Assembly (NCBI GenBank): GCA_030425505.1 | Contig: JAUIAB010000005.1 | Location: 1-64,000 of the forward strand | Origin: Bacteroidia bacterium | GTDB lineage: Bacteria; Bacteroidota; Bacteroidia; Cytophagales; Flammeovirgaceae | DNA: 64,000 bases | Reading direction: 5' to 3' | Shown here: one piece after another, positions 6,086 through 22,912 of the stretch | How positions within the stretch are numbered: the first letter of the stretch is position 1 | How the letters are laid out: each line of letters begins with the position of its first letter | Translations under genes and position numbers: made by a program | The notes under the pieces: model-generated | The model's database searches: none | What the model was told of the DNA's origin: nothing | What the model saw: only the letters and a program-made list of their open reading frames with translations

Positions 6086-6598
6086 TTACTTTTTAAAAAC
6101 AAACTTAATTTCTTTTTCAGCCGCATCTTTTTCTGAGTTCAGGACAAATACATGCATGGTTGTATCACTTATTTTTTTAAAGCGAATACCATCAAAACGA
6201 ACTTCAGTTTTCGTGATTTTGACCAGAGGAAAAACAAGAACTTCTTTCTTTTCCTCCCAACCTGTTAGGTCAGCATTAAAGTGTTTTAATTGAAAACTAA
6301 GACCCTTTTCTTCATCAAAAGAAATAGTCATAATCTCATAAAAAACAATTGCATCATCTTTGATAAGCTTGAACATACCCATCATAGAATTCCCAGATGG
6401 TTCACTCCATATCTCTTCAAAAGAACCGCCAAAAGCTTCTCCTTTCCAACTTCCACTAATCCAGCTTATTTTTTTTAAACCTTTGTGTACATTACTGCTA
6501 TCTAGAAGCTCTTTTGAAGATTTTGGGATATTTGGGATATAAGAGTATGATTTTGCTGACAGCAATAAACAAAAAATCAAGAAAATATTTTTTTGCAT
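6086..6598 (-). CDS. DUF6265 family exported protein
   Basis: A protein of about 170 residues. The ATG at 6598 was chosen because it puts a signal peptide (MQKNIFLIFCLLLSAKSYS) at the N-terminus. A longer reading frame from 6658 would add 20 residues and run into the start of the divergent gene. The body matches the DUF6265 pattern: WISGSWKGEAFGGSFEEIW near the N-terminus, then GNSMMGMFKL and a short lipocalin-like beta series ending with VFKK. Members are small secreted proteins of unknown function. It is divergent from the alpha-2-macroglobulin gene, with about 120 bp between the starts for both promoters. Confidence 0.75.
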   Translation of the reverse strand: MQKNIFLIFCLLLSAKSYSYIPNIPKSSKELLDSSNVHKGLKKISWISGSWKGEAFGGSFEEIWSEPSGNSMMGMFKLIKDDAIVFYEIMTISFDEEKGLSFQLKHFNADLTGWEEKKEVLVFPLVKITKTEVRFDGIRFKKISDTTMHVFVLNSEKDAAEKEIKFVFKK

Positions 6599-6718
6599 TA
6601 CAAGTAATTGATTGTTAGTGTTAGTTAAAAATATGTAAAAAAAGCATACTTTTTGCAATGCTCTAATAACAACTTATATATTTATATTAAAGCGAGTTGT
6701 AAACTAAAAAAAGCACTC

Positions 6719-9700
6719 ATGAAAATAAGAAATCTTATCATTTGCATATTCATATTTTTTCAAACTGCTTGTGCTCAAAAAAATATTAAAATGGATAATA
6801 AAGAACTTGGAAAAGGATGGGAAAAAGTAAAGCAACTAGAAAAAAAAGGACTCCCTGAGTCTGCACTTGAAGAGGTTGAAAAAATTTATAGCTCTGCTTT
6901 GGAGAAAGAAAATTGGGGAGAATTAGTAAAAGCAATTATACACAAACTAAAATATACAAGTTACAAAGAAGAAAATGCTTTTGTAAAGAACTTAATTAAA
7001 CTAAAAAAAGAAGCGGAAACAGCAACATACCCTGCAAAACCACTATTACACTCAATGCTTGGCGAGATGTATTGGTCTTATTATCAAAATAATAGATATA
7101 GGTTTAACCAACGATCTCAAATAGCTGGCATAAAACAAGATGATATTGAAACCTGGAGCTTACAAAAAATAGTAGAAGAAACATTTAGACAGTATCAATT
7201 ATCTTTAGACGACTCGGAAAAAAGTAAAGAAATAGCAATCAACATATATGATGAAGTACTAGCAAAAGGAGGAGAAACTAGTAGAGAAATTCGACCTACC
7301 ATTTTTGATTTCCTCGCACATAGAGCTATTGCATTCTTCTCTAATCCTGAGCCAGATATAACAAAGCCAGCAAGCACATTTATGATAGATGATGCACAGT
7401 ATCTCGCTGAAGCATTTGATTTTGTAGACTTAGAAATTGCTTCAGACGATACTCTTTCTATGAAATATCATGCTTTGAAAATATACCAAGAGCTAATACA
7501 GCTTCACTTAGAAGATGAAGATCCTAAAGCATTGGTAGAAGTAGACCTTCAACGGTTAGAGTTTGTGAAAAACAATTCTATTATTCCTAATAAGGAAGAA
7601 CTATATCTTAAAACACTTCAAAAACTTGAAAAAGAAACGATCGAAAGTCCGGTATCTACAAAAGTAACTCACAAAATAGCTCTATCGCACCAATTATCTG
7701 GTTATCAGTACAAGCCACTAATCTCTGAAGATCACAAATGGGATCTAAAAAAAGCAATAGAGCTTTGTGATGCTGGGCTTCAACGATTTCCAGATTCTGA
7801 CGGGGCAATACTTTGCGAAAACTTGAAAATAGATATTACAAAGCAGACTATAGAGTCGCAAATAGAAAAAAGAAATATTCCAAACCAGCCATTTAGAGCC
7901 TTTATTCGGTATAATAACCTTGATAAAATAAACTACAGAGTTGTAAAGATAGATCGAACAGATGTTCAAGAGCTTAGAGAAGACCTCTCTAAAAAGCATG
8001 ATATCAATAAAGACAAGGAGTTTATTAAATACTTTTTAGATAAAAGCTCACTTAAAACAGGAAATTATTCACTACCAAATGATGGAGACTTTCAGAGTCA
8101 CAGCTTAGAAATAAAAATAGATGCACTTCCTGTAGGGGAGTATATGCTTATTTTTAGCTCAGATGAAAACTTCAATTTGGAAAAAAGTGCTGTGGTATAT
8201 TCATTCATAACAGTCACTAACATAAGCTACATACACAGAAATCATCAAAATGGAGATACTGATTTTTATGTAGTACACAGAGAAACAGGAGAGCCACTGC
8301 AAGGTGTAGAAGCAGAGGTATTCAGGAAAAAATACGAATCACAAAAAGGATATTATTTCAAAAAAGAAGGCACTTTAAAAAGTGACGGCAATGGTTACAT
8401 TCAGGTAGAGAAAAATCATAAACCAGGTGTTTATGATTATGGAATAAAAGTTAACTTTAGTAAAGGAGATGATTTTGTAAGCACAGATGAGATCGGTCAA
8501 GGTTATTCTTATTATTCATCATCCTATTCTGGACAAATAAACCAATATATAACCTATCCGCCAACTACTGGTATTCAAACTTTTTTTTTCTTGGATAGAT
8601 CAATATACAGACCTGGTCAAACCATTTATTTTAAAGGACTAGTGCTAATGACAGATGGTAAGAAGCCAGAAACAGTTAAAAATCGTGATGTCATTGTAAC
8701 ACTTTACGATGTAAACAATCAACCAAAAGGAGATTTAACCTTAAAAAGCAATGAGTACGGTACGTTTAGTGGAATCTTTACAGCACCGTCTAGTGGATTA
8801 ACTGGTCAAATGTCCCTTAAAACAAATAGCACTCTGGGGCAAGCAAGCTTTTCTGTAGAAGAATATAAACGCCCAAAGTTTCAGGTAAACTTTAACCCAC
8901 TAAAAGGGAGTTTTAAACTAAATGAAACGATAAAAGTAACTGGAAATGCTCAGGCATTTTCTGGAGCAAATATAGATGGAGCAGAAGTAAAATACCGAGT
9001 AGTAAGAAATGCCTCTTTTCCTTATTGGTTTTGGTACAGGTGGGGTTTTTATCCAAGTTCACCACAGATAGAAATAGTAAATGGCGCAACTAAAACAGAT
9101 GAAAAAGGGCAGTTTGAGATAGACTTTAAAGCAATACCAGATCTAAGCATAGACAAAAAAGTAGAGCCAACTTTTAGCTATACCATCTATGCAGATGTCA
9201 CAGACATCAATGGAGAAACGCATAGTTCATCAAAAGTAGTTTATGTAGGATATAAAGCACTTACCCTTAATATTCCCGTTTCAAATATTGATACCAAAGT
9301 TGGTAAAGATACATTTGACATATACACACAAAATTTGGCAGGTGAGTTTGAACCAGCAGCTGGTGAAATAACCATTTGGAAGCTTAAAGGCTCAAATAAA
9401 ACGTTTAGAGATAGGTACTGGAATCAACCGGATCTTCATTTATATTCTAAAGAAGAGTACTACCAATTATTTCCACATGACCTTTATGAAGATGAAAACA
9501 ACAAATTCAAGTGGGAAAAAGAAAAGAAAGTGTTTTCTACATCATTCAATACAAAAAACAATAAAAAACTAACATTAAACGATCTTGAAAAGTGGGATCT
9601 AGGAGAATACGTTTTGGAAATATCGTCGAAAGATAAATATGGAGAAAGTGTACAAGGAAAAACCTACTTTCAAGTGTTTTCTTCTGAAAAGAAAAGCGTA

Positions 9701-12700
9701 CCTGTAAAAACTGTTAACTATAGCCAAGCTTTAAAAACAAAGGCTGAACCAGGAGAAGAAGCCACTATCCTATTTGGTACTTCAGAGGAAAAAATAAATG
9801 CTTTGTATGAACTGGAACTGGATGGAAAAATAATCAATAAGGAAAGAGTTGAGCTCAATAGAGAGCAAAAAATATTCAAGGTTGATATAGAAGAAAGGCA
9901 TAGGGGCAACTTGATAGCACATTATATGTTTGTGAAGCATAATAGACTATATACTAATGATATAGTAATTCAAGTCCCATATACTAATAAGGTTTTAGAT
10001 ATTGAGTTTGCAACATTTAGAGACAAGCTTCAACCAGGTCAGGAAGAACAATGGAAAATAATAGTAAAAGGGAAAAATAAGGAAAAAATAGCAGCTGAAA
10101 TGGTTGCTACCCTTTACGATGAATCTTTAGACCAATTTAGAGCTCATGGCTGGTATCAAAACTTTTATACTCTAAACTACTCAAAGCTAAACTGGCAAAC
10201 AATTAATGACTTTAAATATCAGGCTTTCACTTCTTATTTCCCTCAAAATTGGCATGCCAGATACAAAAGATACCCTAAGGTTATCACGTATGATCAACTC
10301 AATTGGTTTGGATATAATTACTACAACTATTATTATAGAAATGCTAGGTTTAACTATAGTGGTAACCTTCAAAGAAACCTTAGAATGGCTCCAAGTAGTG
10401 TGAAGGATGGAGAGTTTGAAGAGGAGTCTGATGTTTTAGAGGAAGTAGTAAGTACCTCAACAGGTTTTGCTATGGATGCAGATGGTACTATAGCTACTGA
10501 AAGATCTGATATGCCTTCACCTCAAGAAGATGGAAACTTGGCTAAAAATGAAAACCAAAAAGTAGATCTTTCTAATGTTAAAGTCAGAACTAACTTCAAT
10601 GAGACAGCATTTTTCTACCCTCATTTACAGACCAATGCAAATGGAGAGATAATTATAAACTTTACTATACCAGAAGCTCTTACCAAATGGAAAATGCTTG
10701 GATTTGCTCATACACAAGACATGAAAACGGGAAGCATTGTAGAGCATTTGGTAACACAGAAAAACCTAATGGTAGTGCCCAATCAGCCTCGGTTCTTTAG
10801 GGAAAATGATAAAATGATTTTCTCTACAAAAATTAGCAGCTTGGTGGATAAAAACCTCTCTGGGCAGGTTGAGCTACAGTTCTTTGATGCAATAACCATG
10901 AAACCTGTTGATATATTTTCAAAAGGAGTAAAAAAAGGTCAAAGTTTTGCTACAAAACCAAAGCAAAGCACAACGGTAGAGTGGGAAATAGCAATCCCGG
11001 AGGGCATACAAGCAATTACCTATAGAGTAGTTGCCAAAGCAGGTAATTTCTCCGATGGAGAAGAAAGAATGATCCCTGTTGTAACAAATCGAATGCTTGT
11101 TACAGAAACATTACCGCTTCCTATCAGAGGCAAACAAACAAAGACATTTGAGTTTGAAAAACTGCTGAATAATACCTCAAAGACGCTCAAACATCAAAAG
11201 TATACATTGGAATATACATCCAATCCAGCCTGGTATGCAGTACAAGCTTTACCATACCTTATGGAGTATCCTTACGAATGTGTAGAACAAACATTTAGCA
11301 GATATTATGCTAATGCAATAGCATCCCATATTGCCAATAGCAACCCTAAAATCAAGAGAGTCTTTGATACCTGGAAGAATATACAGCCTGATGCTCTACT
11401 TTCTAACTTGGAGAAAAACCAGGAACTCAAAACAGCTTTACTAGAAGAAACACCATGGGTATTACAAGCACAAAGCGAAACCCAAAGAAAGCGAATGATT
11501 GGCGTTCTGTTTGATCTTAATAGAATGGCAAACGAGTTAGAAATAGCATTAAATAAAATACAAGATGCCCAATATTCTAGTGGTGGCTTTAGTTGGTTTC
11601 CTGGGTTGCCAGAAAATCGTTATATGACCCAACATATTACAGCAGGAATGGGGCATTTAGATGTTTTAGGTGTCAAAAGCATTAAAAAAGACTCTAAAAC
11701 ATGGAGTATGGTAACCAAAGCATTAAACTATTTGGACACAGAAATACGCAAAGACTATCAAAGACTTAAAGACTTAGCAAAACAAAAGAAAATAAAACTA
11801 GAAGATAATCACATAAGCTACATACAATATCACTACTTATATACTAGAAGTTACTTCAAAGAAGTAGAAGTTTCAAAAGCAAATCAAGAAGCGTTTGAGT
11901 ACTTCTTAAACCAGGCAAAAGAGTACTGGATAAAAACGAATCTTTATGCTCAGGGCATGGCATGTCTCGCATTGCACCAGTTTGATGAGGGTTCTACATC
12001 GAAAGAAATGATTCGATCATTTAGTGAAAGAGCTCTTCACTCTGAGGAAATGGGAATGTACTGGAAAAGTAGCAATGGTTACTTCTGGTATCAGGCACCA
12101 ATAGAAACACAAGCATTGATGATAGAGGTATATGATGTAGTAGCAGAAGATCAAAAAGCAGTAGAAGAGTTGAAAACATGGTTGCTTAAGCAGAAGCAAA
12201 CACAAGATTGGAAAACAACTAAAGCAACGGTAGAAGCCTGTTATGCTTTATTGAGAAGGGGGACAGATATTCTGGCAAATGATAATTTGGCAGAGATAAG
12301 TATTGGAGGCAAAAAAATAGATCCTAAAGAACGAGAAGACACGAATATTGAAGCAGGTACAGGTTATTTCAAAACATCTTGGAATAAAAATGAAATTTCT
12401 ACTGACATGGGAAGAATAGAAATATCCAAGAAAGAAGAAGGGGTAGCTTGGGGAGCAGTTTATTGGCAGTACTTTGAGCAGTTAGACAAAATCACACCCG
12501 CAGAAACTCCATTAAAACTTAAAAAAGAACTTTTCCTACAAAAAAATACAGATCGTGGTCAAGTTATAGTGCCAATAAATGAGCACACAAAACTTTCTGT
12601 AGGAGATCTTGTGAAAGTAAGAATAGAGTTAAGGGTTGACCGTGATATGGAGTACGTTCATCTTAAAGATATGAGAGCATCCTCATTTGAACCAGTTAGT

Positions 12701-19683: not shown

Positions 19684-19700
19684 GATCAAAAGTTCTTGAT

Positions 19701-19731
19701 CAAAATTAAGCTATGTTAGTTAGATGCCAAC
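19701..19731 (-). promoter_or_regulatory. Bacteroidota-type promoter of maeB
   Basis: Read on the minus strand, TAATTTTG (19701-19708) matches the -7 consensus TAnnTTTG, and GTTG (19728-19731) sits 19 bases upstream at the -33 position. The -7 box ends 17 bases before the maeB ATG, so the leader would be short. This is the best spaced -33/-7 pair found in the window. Confidence 0.5.
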
Positions 19732-19869
19732 TTTTTCTTTCACCAAAGAATGGTTTTTATTAATCGATTAGTAAACCATTAATATCACATTTAATAGTAT
19801 AATATATTTTCATTTAGGTAAAATAAATAGTAAAATTAGTCTCAATGTTAAACTAAAACCATATAAATC

Positions 19870-20079
19870 ATGAAAACAATCAAAAACACACTTTTCGCTT
19901 TTTCTTTACTTTTAATGGCATCATTTGCTTTTTCCCAAGAAAGTAAAAAACATGTTTTGGAAGCAAATACTACTATTGAACAAGTACTAAAAACTGAGTT
20001 TGTAACTTATTTTGGGGAAGAGGATAAAAAGAAGGAAACACCTAAAAGAAGAGAAAGAGGCAAAACCATAAAATTCTAA
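19870..20079 (+). CDS. Small secreted basic-tailed protein
   Basis: 69 residues. A clear signal peptide (MKTIKNTLFAFSLLLMASFAFSQ) leaves a mature peptide of about 46 residues whose C-terminal third is very basic (KKKETPKRRERGK). No known family was recognised. Its stop codon lies ten bases before the start of the TPR-CHAT gene, so the two are very likely cotranscribed and perhaps translationally coupled. It may be a partner or substrate of the CHAT protein; that is inference from position and composition only. Confidence 0.7.
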   Translation: MKTIKNTLFAFSLLLMASFAFSQESKKHVLEANTTIEQVLKTEFVTYFGEEDKKKETPKRRERGKTIKF

Positions 20080-20089
20080 TACTAAAAAC

Positions 20090-22912
20090 TTGTTCAAAAA
20101 GCTATTATTTACTTTAATCATTACTACTTCTTTAATCTACGATTCTAAGGCTCAATCAGCTAAGAGTTTTTATAAACAATATCTTTATGCTTATCAATTA
20201 TACAATGCCGAAGATGATAATGCAATAAAAGAGTTCAAAAAAGCAATATCTCTCTACAATACTTCAATGGGTAATACCTACGTCGAAGAATTTTTGAATT
20301 CTTTATACATGGTAGGAGATGAGTACTACCGGTTTGAAGATTACAAAAAAGCAATTGAATACTACAGCAAATGCTTAAAAGAACTCAAAAGTGTAAAGTT
20401 TGAAAATACTTTACTTCAATTTGATGCTAACCTTGCGATAGGACAAGCTTACAGTAATTTATTTTTCTATCGTACTGCTTCAAGATATTTTGAATATTGC
20501 GAAGAAATACTACATAAAATAGAAGACAGTAAGTTACACAGTCTTTTTTATAATGAAGTAGGAATTATATATGATGGTATAGGTGATTATGAATTATCCT
20601 TAAAGTATCTAAAGAAAGCACAATTAATAGATGTAAAAAATGGGGGAAATTCTTTAGCAGCAAGCATAAATATCGGAAGATGTTATCAACAACTTGGACG
20701 CTTTACTAAAAGTTTAGAAGTCTTTAATAACATAAATATATCAGAAGTTCCTCTTCCAGATAACTCATTAGCTTTACTAGTAATTAAGTATTTAAAAGGA
20801 CAAGCATATTTAGAGCTTGGTAAACACCGTGAGTGCTTAGAAATACTTAAAAAATCATCGTCAGAAATTGTAAACAACAAAAGTTTACCAGTAAACCTAG
20901 AAATAAGTATTTATAATTTACTTGGAGAAGTAAATTTAACCCTCAAAAACTATGCTTTAGCCGAAAAGTATCTAAGTAAAGCTGAAAACTCAATAGAAAA
21001 AGGTTTTAACTCTGTAAATGAATATGTGCTGAGATGTTTTATTCTAAAAAGCAAGTGGAAAAGAGCAGTTGGTGAGCCATTAAAGGCTTTAAGTTATTGT
21101 CAGGAAAGCTTAAAAAAAATAAGTCCCTCTTTTCAACTAGAAGGAGATACACTTTTTTCTCTAAAAGAAACTTCTTTTGTCAGTCAGTTTTTAGAATTGT
21201 TAGACGAAATGGGACAAGCATACCAAGAATTATATGCTGTAGATGGAAATCAAAAACATTTGAAAAATGCCTGGAAAAGTTTCCATTTGGCAGTTTTGCT
21301 CTCAGAAGAAAACCGAAAAACTTTTCAATCTAGTGCTTCTAAGCTATTCTTTACCGAAAAAGTATATCCCATTTTTGTAAATGCCGTGAAAGCAGGATAT
21401 GCTCTGTACAAGGCAGAAAAAAAAGAAAGCCTTAGAGAAGTCATTGTTCAAGTTATAGAAAAAAGTAAAGCTTCTGTACTACAAGATGTCTTGTGGGAGG
21501 ATAAGATCAAATCTTTTGGAACTGTGCCAGATACCTTAGTTGCTAAAGAAAGGGAAGTAGAGAAAAACATTGCCCTACTAAAAACACAGAAAAATAAACA
21601 CGAGGGAGATAAAGAAAAACTAAGACTAATAGTGAGTAGAATCCGAGATCTGGAAATAGAATTACAAAATATAAAAGAAAGCTTTGAAAAATATCCTCAA
21701 TATTATCAACTTAAGTATTCGAATCAGAATATTGACATGACAAAAGCAATGACCTATTGCAAAAGAAAGGATTTAGCTATTCTTTCTTATTTTGACACTC
21801 CAGATGCTATTTATGCATACTCTATTGTGCGAGACAAATATGAATTATACAAAATAGATAAAGATTCTCTTTTTGATAAATCCCTAGGCTATGTAAAAGA
21901 ACAATTGTATCTCCATCCTGATGAAAGACATTACAAGTTTGAGGAAGACCCTTGGGTTACTACTTTATACCAACACTTGATACAACCTGTTTACGAGGTC
22001 ATTTCAAAACATAAAAAACTACTTATTATTCCCGATATTAACTTTCAAGATATCCCTTTCGAAATACTTAGACCTGTCAAAGAAGAGTATTTGCTCTATA
22101 AAAACTCCATAACCTACAATTACTCTTTAAAAAAAACATTAGAGGAAAATAATGCTAAACGTAAAATGGGTAATATTGAGGTTTTAGCTATTGCGCCTTT
22201 TGCTAACTATCGAATCGATTTCACAAAAAAAGAAAGGCTATACTATCCTCTAAAACAAACAGATAAAGAAGTAAGCAGCCTCAAAGGAACAATTTTGATC
22301 AACGAAAAAGCAACAAAAGAAGCCTTTTTAGAAAATGTTTCTTATCACAATATACTTCATTTAGCCACCCATACCCATGTAAATGATAGCGATCCGGACA
22401 AATCATATATTGTCTTTCGACCAGATACTACAGACTATAAGCTATACTCTACAGAATTATACGCTCTCAATTTGAGTAATACAGATCTTGCAATATTAAG
22501 TGCCTGCCAGACAGATAAAGGAAAAAAAATAAAAGGCGAAGGCGCTTTAAGCCTTGCTAGAGGTTTTAGCTATGCTGGGTGCAATAATCTCATACTTACC
22601 CGATGGTACGCAGAAGATATTTCTACTTCCTTTATTATAAAAAGGTTTTACCACCATTTGGAAAAAGGGTTAGGTAAAGACGAAGCACTGCAAAAGGCTA
22701 AAATTGATTTTTTAGAATCTGAAAACCTGGTATATGAAGCAGACAAAAATATACTAAACTGGGCAAACCTGGTTTTTTATGGTAACCCCTCTCCACTTTA
22801 TAAAAAACCACCTCATACATACTTCTGGTGGATTGTTTTAGCTGGTAGTATAGTTGTCATTTTTGTAATAGTATACTTAAGGACTCGAAGAAATGGATCA
22901 AACCAATTTTAA
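20090..22912 (+). CDS. Exported TPR-CHAT domain protein (caspase-like, membrane anchored)
   Basis: 940 residues starting at a TTG (20090). The start is supported because the signal peptide MFKKLLFTLIITTSLIYDSKAQS begins exactly there and the next Met is over 50 residues in. About eight TPR-like helical repeats fill residues 30-400, then a coiled-coil linker (about 440-530). A CHAT domain spans about 620-895, with the catalytic pair His761 (HLATHTH) and Cys806 (LSACQT). A single C-terminal transmembrane helix (about 907-928) ends in a basic tail, so the peptidase should face the periplasm, tethered to the inner membrane. CHAT belongs to peptidase clan CD with caspases, separase and gingipains. 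The substrate is unknown; the small secreted protein just upstream is a candidate. Confidence 0.85.
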   Translation: MFKKLLFTLIITTSLIYDSKAQSAKSFYKQYLYAYQLYNAEDDNAIKEFKKAISLYNTSMGNTYVEEFLNSLYMVGDEYYRFEDYKKAIEYYSKCLKELKSVKFENTLLQFDANLAIGQAYSNLFFYRTASRYFEYCEEILHKIEDSKLHSLFYNEVGIIYDGIGDYELSLKYLKKAQLIDVKNGGNSLAASINIGRCYQQLGRFTKSLEVFNNINISEVPLPDNSLALLVIKYLKGQAYLELGKHRECLEILKKSSSEIVNNKSLPVNLEISIYNLLGEVNLTLKNYALAEKYLSKAENSIEKGFNSVNEYVLRCFILKSKWKRAVGEPLKALSYCQESLKKISPSFQLEGDTLFSLKETSFVSQFLELLDEMGQAYQELYAVDGNQKHLKNAWKSFHLAVLLSEENRKTFQSSASKLFFTEKVYPIFVNAVKAGYALYKAEKKESLREVIVQVIEKSKASVLQDVLWEDKIKSFGTVPDTLVAKEREVEKNIALLKTQKNKHEGDKEKLRLIVSRIRDLEIELQNIKESFEKYPQYYQLKYSNQNIDMTKAMTYCKRKDLAILSYFDTPDAIYAYSIVRDKYELYKIDKDSLFDKSLGYVKEQLYLHPDERHYKFEEDPWVTTLYQHLIQPVYEVISKHKKLLIIPDINFQDIPFEILRPVKEEYLLYKNSITYNYSLKKTLEENNAKRKMGNIEVLAIAPFANYRIDFTKKERLYYPLKQTDKEVSSLKGTILINEKATKEAFLENVSYHNILHLATHTHVNDSDPDKSYIVFRPDTTDYKLYSTELYALNLSNTDLAILSACQTDKGKKIKGEGALSLARGFSYAGCNNLILTRWYAEDISTSFIIKRFYHHLEKGLGKDEALQKAKIDFLESENLVYEADKNILNWANLVFYGNPSPLYKKPPHTYFWWIVLAGSIVVIFVIVYLRTRRNGSNQF

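Follow-up and report, generated by a model that had tools for sequence, protein, structure and literature searches.

Most of what is known about CHAT proteases concerns immunity and cell death in the cytoplasm, and there are precedents for a protease encoded together with its cognate target. Bacterial gasdermin is the substrate of a caspase-like/CHAT protease encoded next to it. It is a cytoplasmic pore-former, whereas the partners of the TPR-CHAT proteins considered here have secretion-type sequences and are Ig-like or tiny, and Pfam gave no match to gasdermin for the six partner proteins that we scanned. DdvA is a transmembrane anti-sigma factor that the PDB names 'CHAT domain-containing', and it is not known to have an adjacent small secreted partner. 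Like the protein described below, which is predicted to be membrane-anchored, DdvA is transmembrane with TPR- and CHAT-like parts, and the titles of its PDB entries (8rot, 8rw5) label it an anti-sigma factor. A review (PMC8999054) mentions CHAT proteins where it deals with ECF54 sigma factors.

Separase, the partner of securin, has a protease region on which our structure model superposes, but it is eukaryotic, carries a far longer helical N-terminus and acts on cohesin, unlike the protein described here. Csx29, the TPR-CHAT protease of Craspase in type III-E CRISPR systems, shares with our protein a TPR part and a two-part caspase-like CHAT region (model Z ~26). It acts on a co-encoded protein, Csx30, in a loop near the C-terminus. 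Two reports describe loop size as mattering more than loop sequence (PMC10028731), and the cut as falling at a non-conserved site, which in orthologues is A|S, L|D or M|K (PMC11106740). Craspase is cytoplasmic and RNA-activated, whereas our protein has a signal-peptide-like N-terminus and a membrane anchor, and the Craspase partners are not recognisably related to those found here.

Architecture of the gene pair

The pair lies in a 64,000-nucleotide stretch of a Bacteroidia genome of the family Flammeovirgaceae (contig JAUIAB010000005.1, positions 1 to 64,000), which we refer to as the window. A preliminary description had noted a 69-aa secreted-type gene followed by a TPR-CHAT gene with His761, Cys806 and a C-terminal anchor, and our analysis confirmed each of these features, including the 10-bp gap between the two genes, both of which lie on the + strand. 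The small gene (19870..20079) was recognized by its coding score and signal-like start. Its predicted type I signal peptide, delimited by eye from the sequence, covers residues 1-23 (19870..19938, + strand) and has no lipobox Cys. The TPR-CHAT gene (20090..22912) begins at a TTG and encodes 940 aa with a predicted N-terminal signal peptide and C-terminal membrane anchor, as judged from sequence, Pfam and the model. Upstream of the pair, the ORF layout leaves a non-coding stretch (19690..19869) between the small gene and a divergent neighbour, judged by eye to be malic-enzyme-like; this is the only long non-coding stretch where a promoter for both genes could sit. The Bacteroidota -7 promoter element has the consensus TAnnTTTG. 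No exact match to it occurs upstream of the small gene, and a weak TATATTTT at 19803, one mismatch away from the consensus, is not decisive. By eye, no Cas7-11/gRAMP effector is present at 15-28 kb, where the other ORFs reach at most 763 aa.

Within the larger protein, a TPR-type helical superhelix spans residues ~23-547 (20156..21730, + strand), as indicated by Pfam TPR matches and the model. This part of the model resembles degron- and peptide-bound TPR structures (8jal, Z 23.9; 4gpk, Z 21.3; 6fv0, Z 18.7). It is followed by a CHAT domain at residues 624-899 (21959..22786, + strand), which matches PF12770 with 163 bits against a curated cut-off of 24 (E 1e-47). The modelled protease region superposes on separase 5fc2 (Z 26.6, rmsd 2.9 over 303 residues) and also matches Csx29 (Z 25.8). 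The codons of the catalytic residues His761 (22370..22372, + strand) and Cys806 (22505..22507, + strand) are intact, and both residues are invariant in 44/44 rows of our alignment A3. By its domain, this dyad and a predicted separase/caspase-like fold, the protein is classed as a CHAT peptidase of clan CD. A predicted transmembrane anchor with the basic end RTRR occupies residues ~909-932 (22814..22885, + strand), and a helix at 909-936 in the model spans this hydrophobic stretch. PADLOC and NCBIfam scans returned no informative family. Against the group profile A1 the protein scores 1158 bits, being itself one of the nine A1 rows.

The window protease has a long branch (1.93) and deviates at 7/57 columns that are conserved in 95% of the other sequences (median 0, highest 7). 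Its residue 807 is Gln, in a column where at least 90% of the sequences have Glu, and together these features suggest that it may be drifting. In a quick tree, in which the position of this long branch is unsure, it falls near L113, L111 and examples with other secreted slot proteins (SH-aLRT 81).

The same genome (2.95 Mb) holds a striking expansion of 12 CHAT-domain genes, most with an exported-type N-terminus and a C-terminal anchor and some in tandem. On its contig C19 lies a second TPR-CHAT gene of the group. The partner of this gene, 530 bp upstream, can be recognised as such but no longer has the Pro-Pro discussed below. Inspection by eye revealed no comparable small secreted gene upstream of the ten CHAT genes outside the group.

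Partner lipoproteins upstream of TPR-CHAT genes

A contig scan with the single window protein returned no loci, while a scan with profile A1 gave 80 named loci. The full set was gathered by CHAT protein similarity alone, and its 156 rows were reduced to 146 distinct loci by identity of one segment. Near relatives among them are not independent, the window locus (L167) is included, and 4/146 begin too close to a contig edge. To describe the genes upstream, we used a profile, A2, of 40 rows built from the partners of some of these loci, so some of the loci match it by construction. With this profile, an A2-type lipoprotein was found upstream in 100/146 loci, a count that supersedes one of 93/146 from a regular expression. 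The spacing between lipoprotein and protease is at most 104 bp in 89/100 pairs. Of the 87 distinct TPR-CHAT genes with scores of 650 bits or more, 79 are directly preceded on the same strand by an A2-type lipoprotein; of the remaining eight, six have no such partner, one has another type and one is at a contig edge. The six are L084 (the second gene of a tandem), the window, L145, L111, L113 and L115, in the last of which a partner relative does lie upstream, parted from the CHAT gene by two methyltransferase-like genes. Conversely, 390 genomes of the order contain 33 A2 matches with E<1e-30, and all 33 are located directly 5' of a TPR-CHAT gene on the same strand, as judged by comparing the two lists by eye.

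The pair was found in Cytophagales, Chitinophagaceae, Sphingobacteriaceae and one MAG labelled Saprospiraceae. Two further records that carry it, titled Williamsia (Actinomycetota) and Thalassobius (L174, L224), group with Bacteroidota in the tree or match a Flammeovirgaceae-family genome (G007), and are probably mislabelled MAGs. Weaker A2 relatives (E 1e-22 to 1e-28) occur in G119, G020, G039, G054 and G106. At the three of these loci that were read (G020, G039, G106), the gene precedes a TPR-PD40-OmpA protein, an assignment that rests on Pfam scanning at two of these loci. The partner-lipoprotein relatives seen before such a protein rather than a CHAT protease (L249, L250, L252) end in ERPVILVVVDRD. 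The partner family is thus not exclusive to CHAT, having relatives next to TPR-PD40-OmpA proteins in one genus.

Several loci depart from the usual layout. At L253 (G155, 6328-10638), two methyltransferase-like genes lie between a partner-like lipoprotein and the TPR-CHAT gene, as if inserted. L128, L136 and L140 have another kind of exported partner in the slot, in which a PPPTAGTE stretch near the C-terminus is conserved. At L135 (G119:C205, ~1559-2483) the partner gene seems frameshifted near its end, with an overlapping frame reading RIPPLIIIILEA, which may reflect assembly error or decay.

The usual partner lipoprotein belongs to no Pfam family above cut-off in the six sequences scanned, except that one gave a weak match to the Ig domain He_PIG. 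Conservation is strongest at the lipid cysteine and in a C-terminal R-P-P-x-hydrophobic tail. All 40 A2 rows share the lipid Cys, two Gly and the Pro-Pro of the tail, and the preceding Arg is at least 90% conserved. The pattern PPx(hydrophobic)2 occurs within the last 25 residues of 96/100 A2-type partners and in 8/686 other ORFs of at least 150 aa, all eight of which are copies of partners (by eye). A structure model of a partner (pLDDT 87.7) contains Ig-like strands, a helix at 222-234, a low-confidence linker (residues 237-241 below 50 pLDDT) and a last strand at 250-254 that corresponds to the tail. Foldseek and VIA returned only Ig/cadherin-like matches, with a best Z of 7.1 and many ties.

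Because the tail is a confident strand in the model of the large partner, it is probably part of the protein's own fold, and this could account for its conservation in the absence of docking. The idea that it is purely a docking tag is weakened accordingly, yet a set of much smaller lipoproteins keeps the tail without the Ig domains. These mini-lipoproteins, of 55-62 aa, are encoded 196-208 bp before a complete TPR-CHAT gene (662-697 bits) in 4/4 sampled species of one genus. The 55-aa example at L113, 201 bp upstream of its TPR-CHAT gene, is 93, 54 and 65% identical to those of the other three genomes. The last ten residues, SIPP[LT]P[LIV]I[RK][RH], a tail of PP-x-P-hydrophobic type, are kept while the middle diverges. 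Their presence before TPR-CHAT genes suggests that a partner can shrink to an anchor plus a tail.

The 69-residue peptide in the partner slot

The 69-codon ORF of the window is more than a chance reading frame and is gene-like. Its coding score is 0.110 bits/codon, within the span of the 35 window ORFs of at least 200 aa (0.055-0.338), and only 1/82 shadow ORFs scores as high. By a simple rule, a signal-peptide-like start (MKTIKNTLFAFSLLLMASFAFSQ) occurs in this ORF alone among the 99 of 50-120 aa in the window. The peptide contains no Cys and thus no lipobox cysteine, belongs to no family in a Pfam scan, and ends in RRERGKTIKF without a PPx(hydrophobic) tail.

By similarity, the peptide is an orphan. 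A search of 58 genomes recovered it in its own genome (3.6e-40), with a best foreign match at E 0.016, which is at the level of signal peptides. Across 390 genomes of the order, two foreign ones reach E 0.01 (E 0.002 and 0.009), through stretches at the signal-peptide end. Beyond such matches, no homologue was found in 57 relatives or in 389 other genomes of the order, the nearest of which are from the same family but another genus, with no congener of the window organism included. The preliminary description had held that its proposal of a functional pair would fail if the small gene were not conserved beside CHAT genes in relatives. Taken literally, the outcome goes against that proposal, as the 69-aa gene was found in none of these genomes, again with no congener among them. 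What survives of that proposal is the pairing at the level of the group, whose TPR-CHAT proteins have a dedicated secreted partner in the counts given above (79/87 and 33/33).

We also asked whether the peptide could be a reduced form of the usual partner. The A2 profile matches no ORF upstream of the window CHAT gene, and none in the whole genome at 1e-5. The candidate explanation that the peptide combines a signal peptide with the lipoprotein C-terminal module was not supported, as the partner C-terminal profile gives 0.5 bits and 928/2000 shuffled sequences do equally well. Pairwise comparison with four partner tails likewise gave no signal, since between 304 and 971 of 1000 shuffled sequences did equally well. 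Consistent with a reduced partner are its position, its secretion-type start and, by eye, an order of helix, charged linker and hydrophobic end. Since the slot is shared without a sequence signal, we regard the peptide as a positional counterpart of the lipoproteins and not as a proven homologue. It fills the partner slot in the plain sense that a secreted-type gene lies directly upstream of the protease gene, on the same strand and 10 bp away, and this occupancy suggests a dedicated, so far undescribed protease-partner system.

The basic stretch KKKETPKRRERGK at residues 53-65 (20026..20064, + strand) had been put forward as the cleavage target, on the grounds that several relatives of CHAT enzymes cut after Arg or Lys. 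Our data lend this no support: the partners conserve a PP-x-hydrophobic tail, not a basic one, and cutting after Arg/Lys is no rule for TPR-CHAT proteases, because the Craspases cut at A|S, L|D and M|K (PMC11106740).

Models for the pair in the cell envelope

In the interpretation we favour, to which we would give somewhat less than an even chance, the window pair is a locally diverged form of an envelope module that is widespread in Bacteroidota, in which a protease holds the tail of a cognate secreted partner and cuts it or is restrained by it. The TPR-CHAT cysteine protease would be exported, with its C-terminal helix fixing it in the inner membrane, presumably facing the periplasm, and would be co-transcribed with the gene just upstream, which encodes its dedicated secreted partner. 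Most likely, the TPR superhelix would grip the partner's C-terminal tail, and the CHAT domain would either cut the partner in the flexible stretch before the tail or be restrained by the partner. The state of the partner, or its cleavage, may then report on the envelope. Binding of the tail and a cut in the linker are proposed by likeness to Csx29 and Csx30. In most species the partner would be a lipoprotein with two Ig-like domains and RPPx(hydrophobic) at its end, while in the window lineage a 69-aa secreted peptide may take the same role. Rather more doubtful, in our judgment, is the idea that the envelope TPR-CHAT protein reads the partner's short C-terminal tail and that the partner has shrunk at least twice, to the 55-62-aa lipoprotein of one genus in the order and to the 69-aa peptide of the window. 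If this were true, the enzyme would have in the 69-aa peptide its minimal substrate or ligand.

The one-to-one pairing of the genes and the small size of the peptide would also fit a partner that acts as an inhibitor or pseudosubstrate, keeping the protease off until an envelope signal arrives (compare securin), with the basic peptide as a minimal inhibitor and the substrates encoded elsewhere. Separase is the top structural match, and the tail is conserved even in the 55-62-aa lipoproteins, but a pseudosubstrate sequence is not recognisable, and we consider such an inhibitor unlikely. The partner might instead be an uncut receptor or assembly subunit, with the TPR-CHAT protein as a sensor or scaffold, as DdvA may act. 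DdvA matches both the TPR and CHAT parts of our model (Z ~21, up to model residues 82-898, with a weak sequence match), and the partner is Ig-like, of the surface-protein type. Invariance of the His and Cys throughout the alignment is nevertheless what is expected of an active protease, and makes a scaffold improbable in our view.

Least probable among these explanations is that the 69-aa gene is a recent orphan sharing the transcript, either an accidental neighbour or a leader ORF, and that the window TPR-CHAT gene is partnerless and decaying. Pointing that way are the lack of a homologue in any genome searched, the long branch and column deviations of the window protein, and the existence of other genes without an A2 partner (6/87 including the window). 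Against it stand the good coding score, signal-like start and 10-bp spacing of the small gene, a slot that elsewhere is mostly filled by secreted proteins, and a 940-codon frame that is open with its dyad intact.

As far as we searched the open-access literature, there is no description of an exported, membrane-anchored TPR-CHAT protein whose secreted partners form a family conserved across several Bacteroidota orders. If the favoured reading of a protease with a cognate envelope partner is true, the conserved exported branch would give Bacteroidota a caspase-like envelope pathway. The partner would at once be a substrate candidate for a large group of proteases that await characterisation, and the very small partners, of 55-69 aa, would be convenient for cleavage assays.
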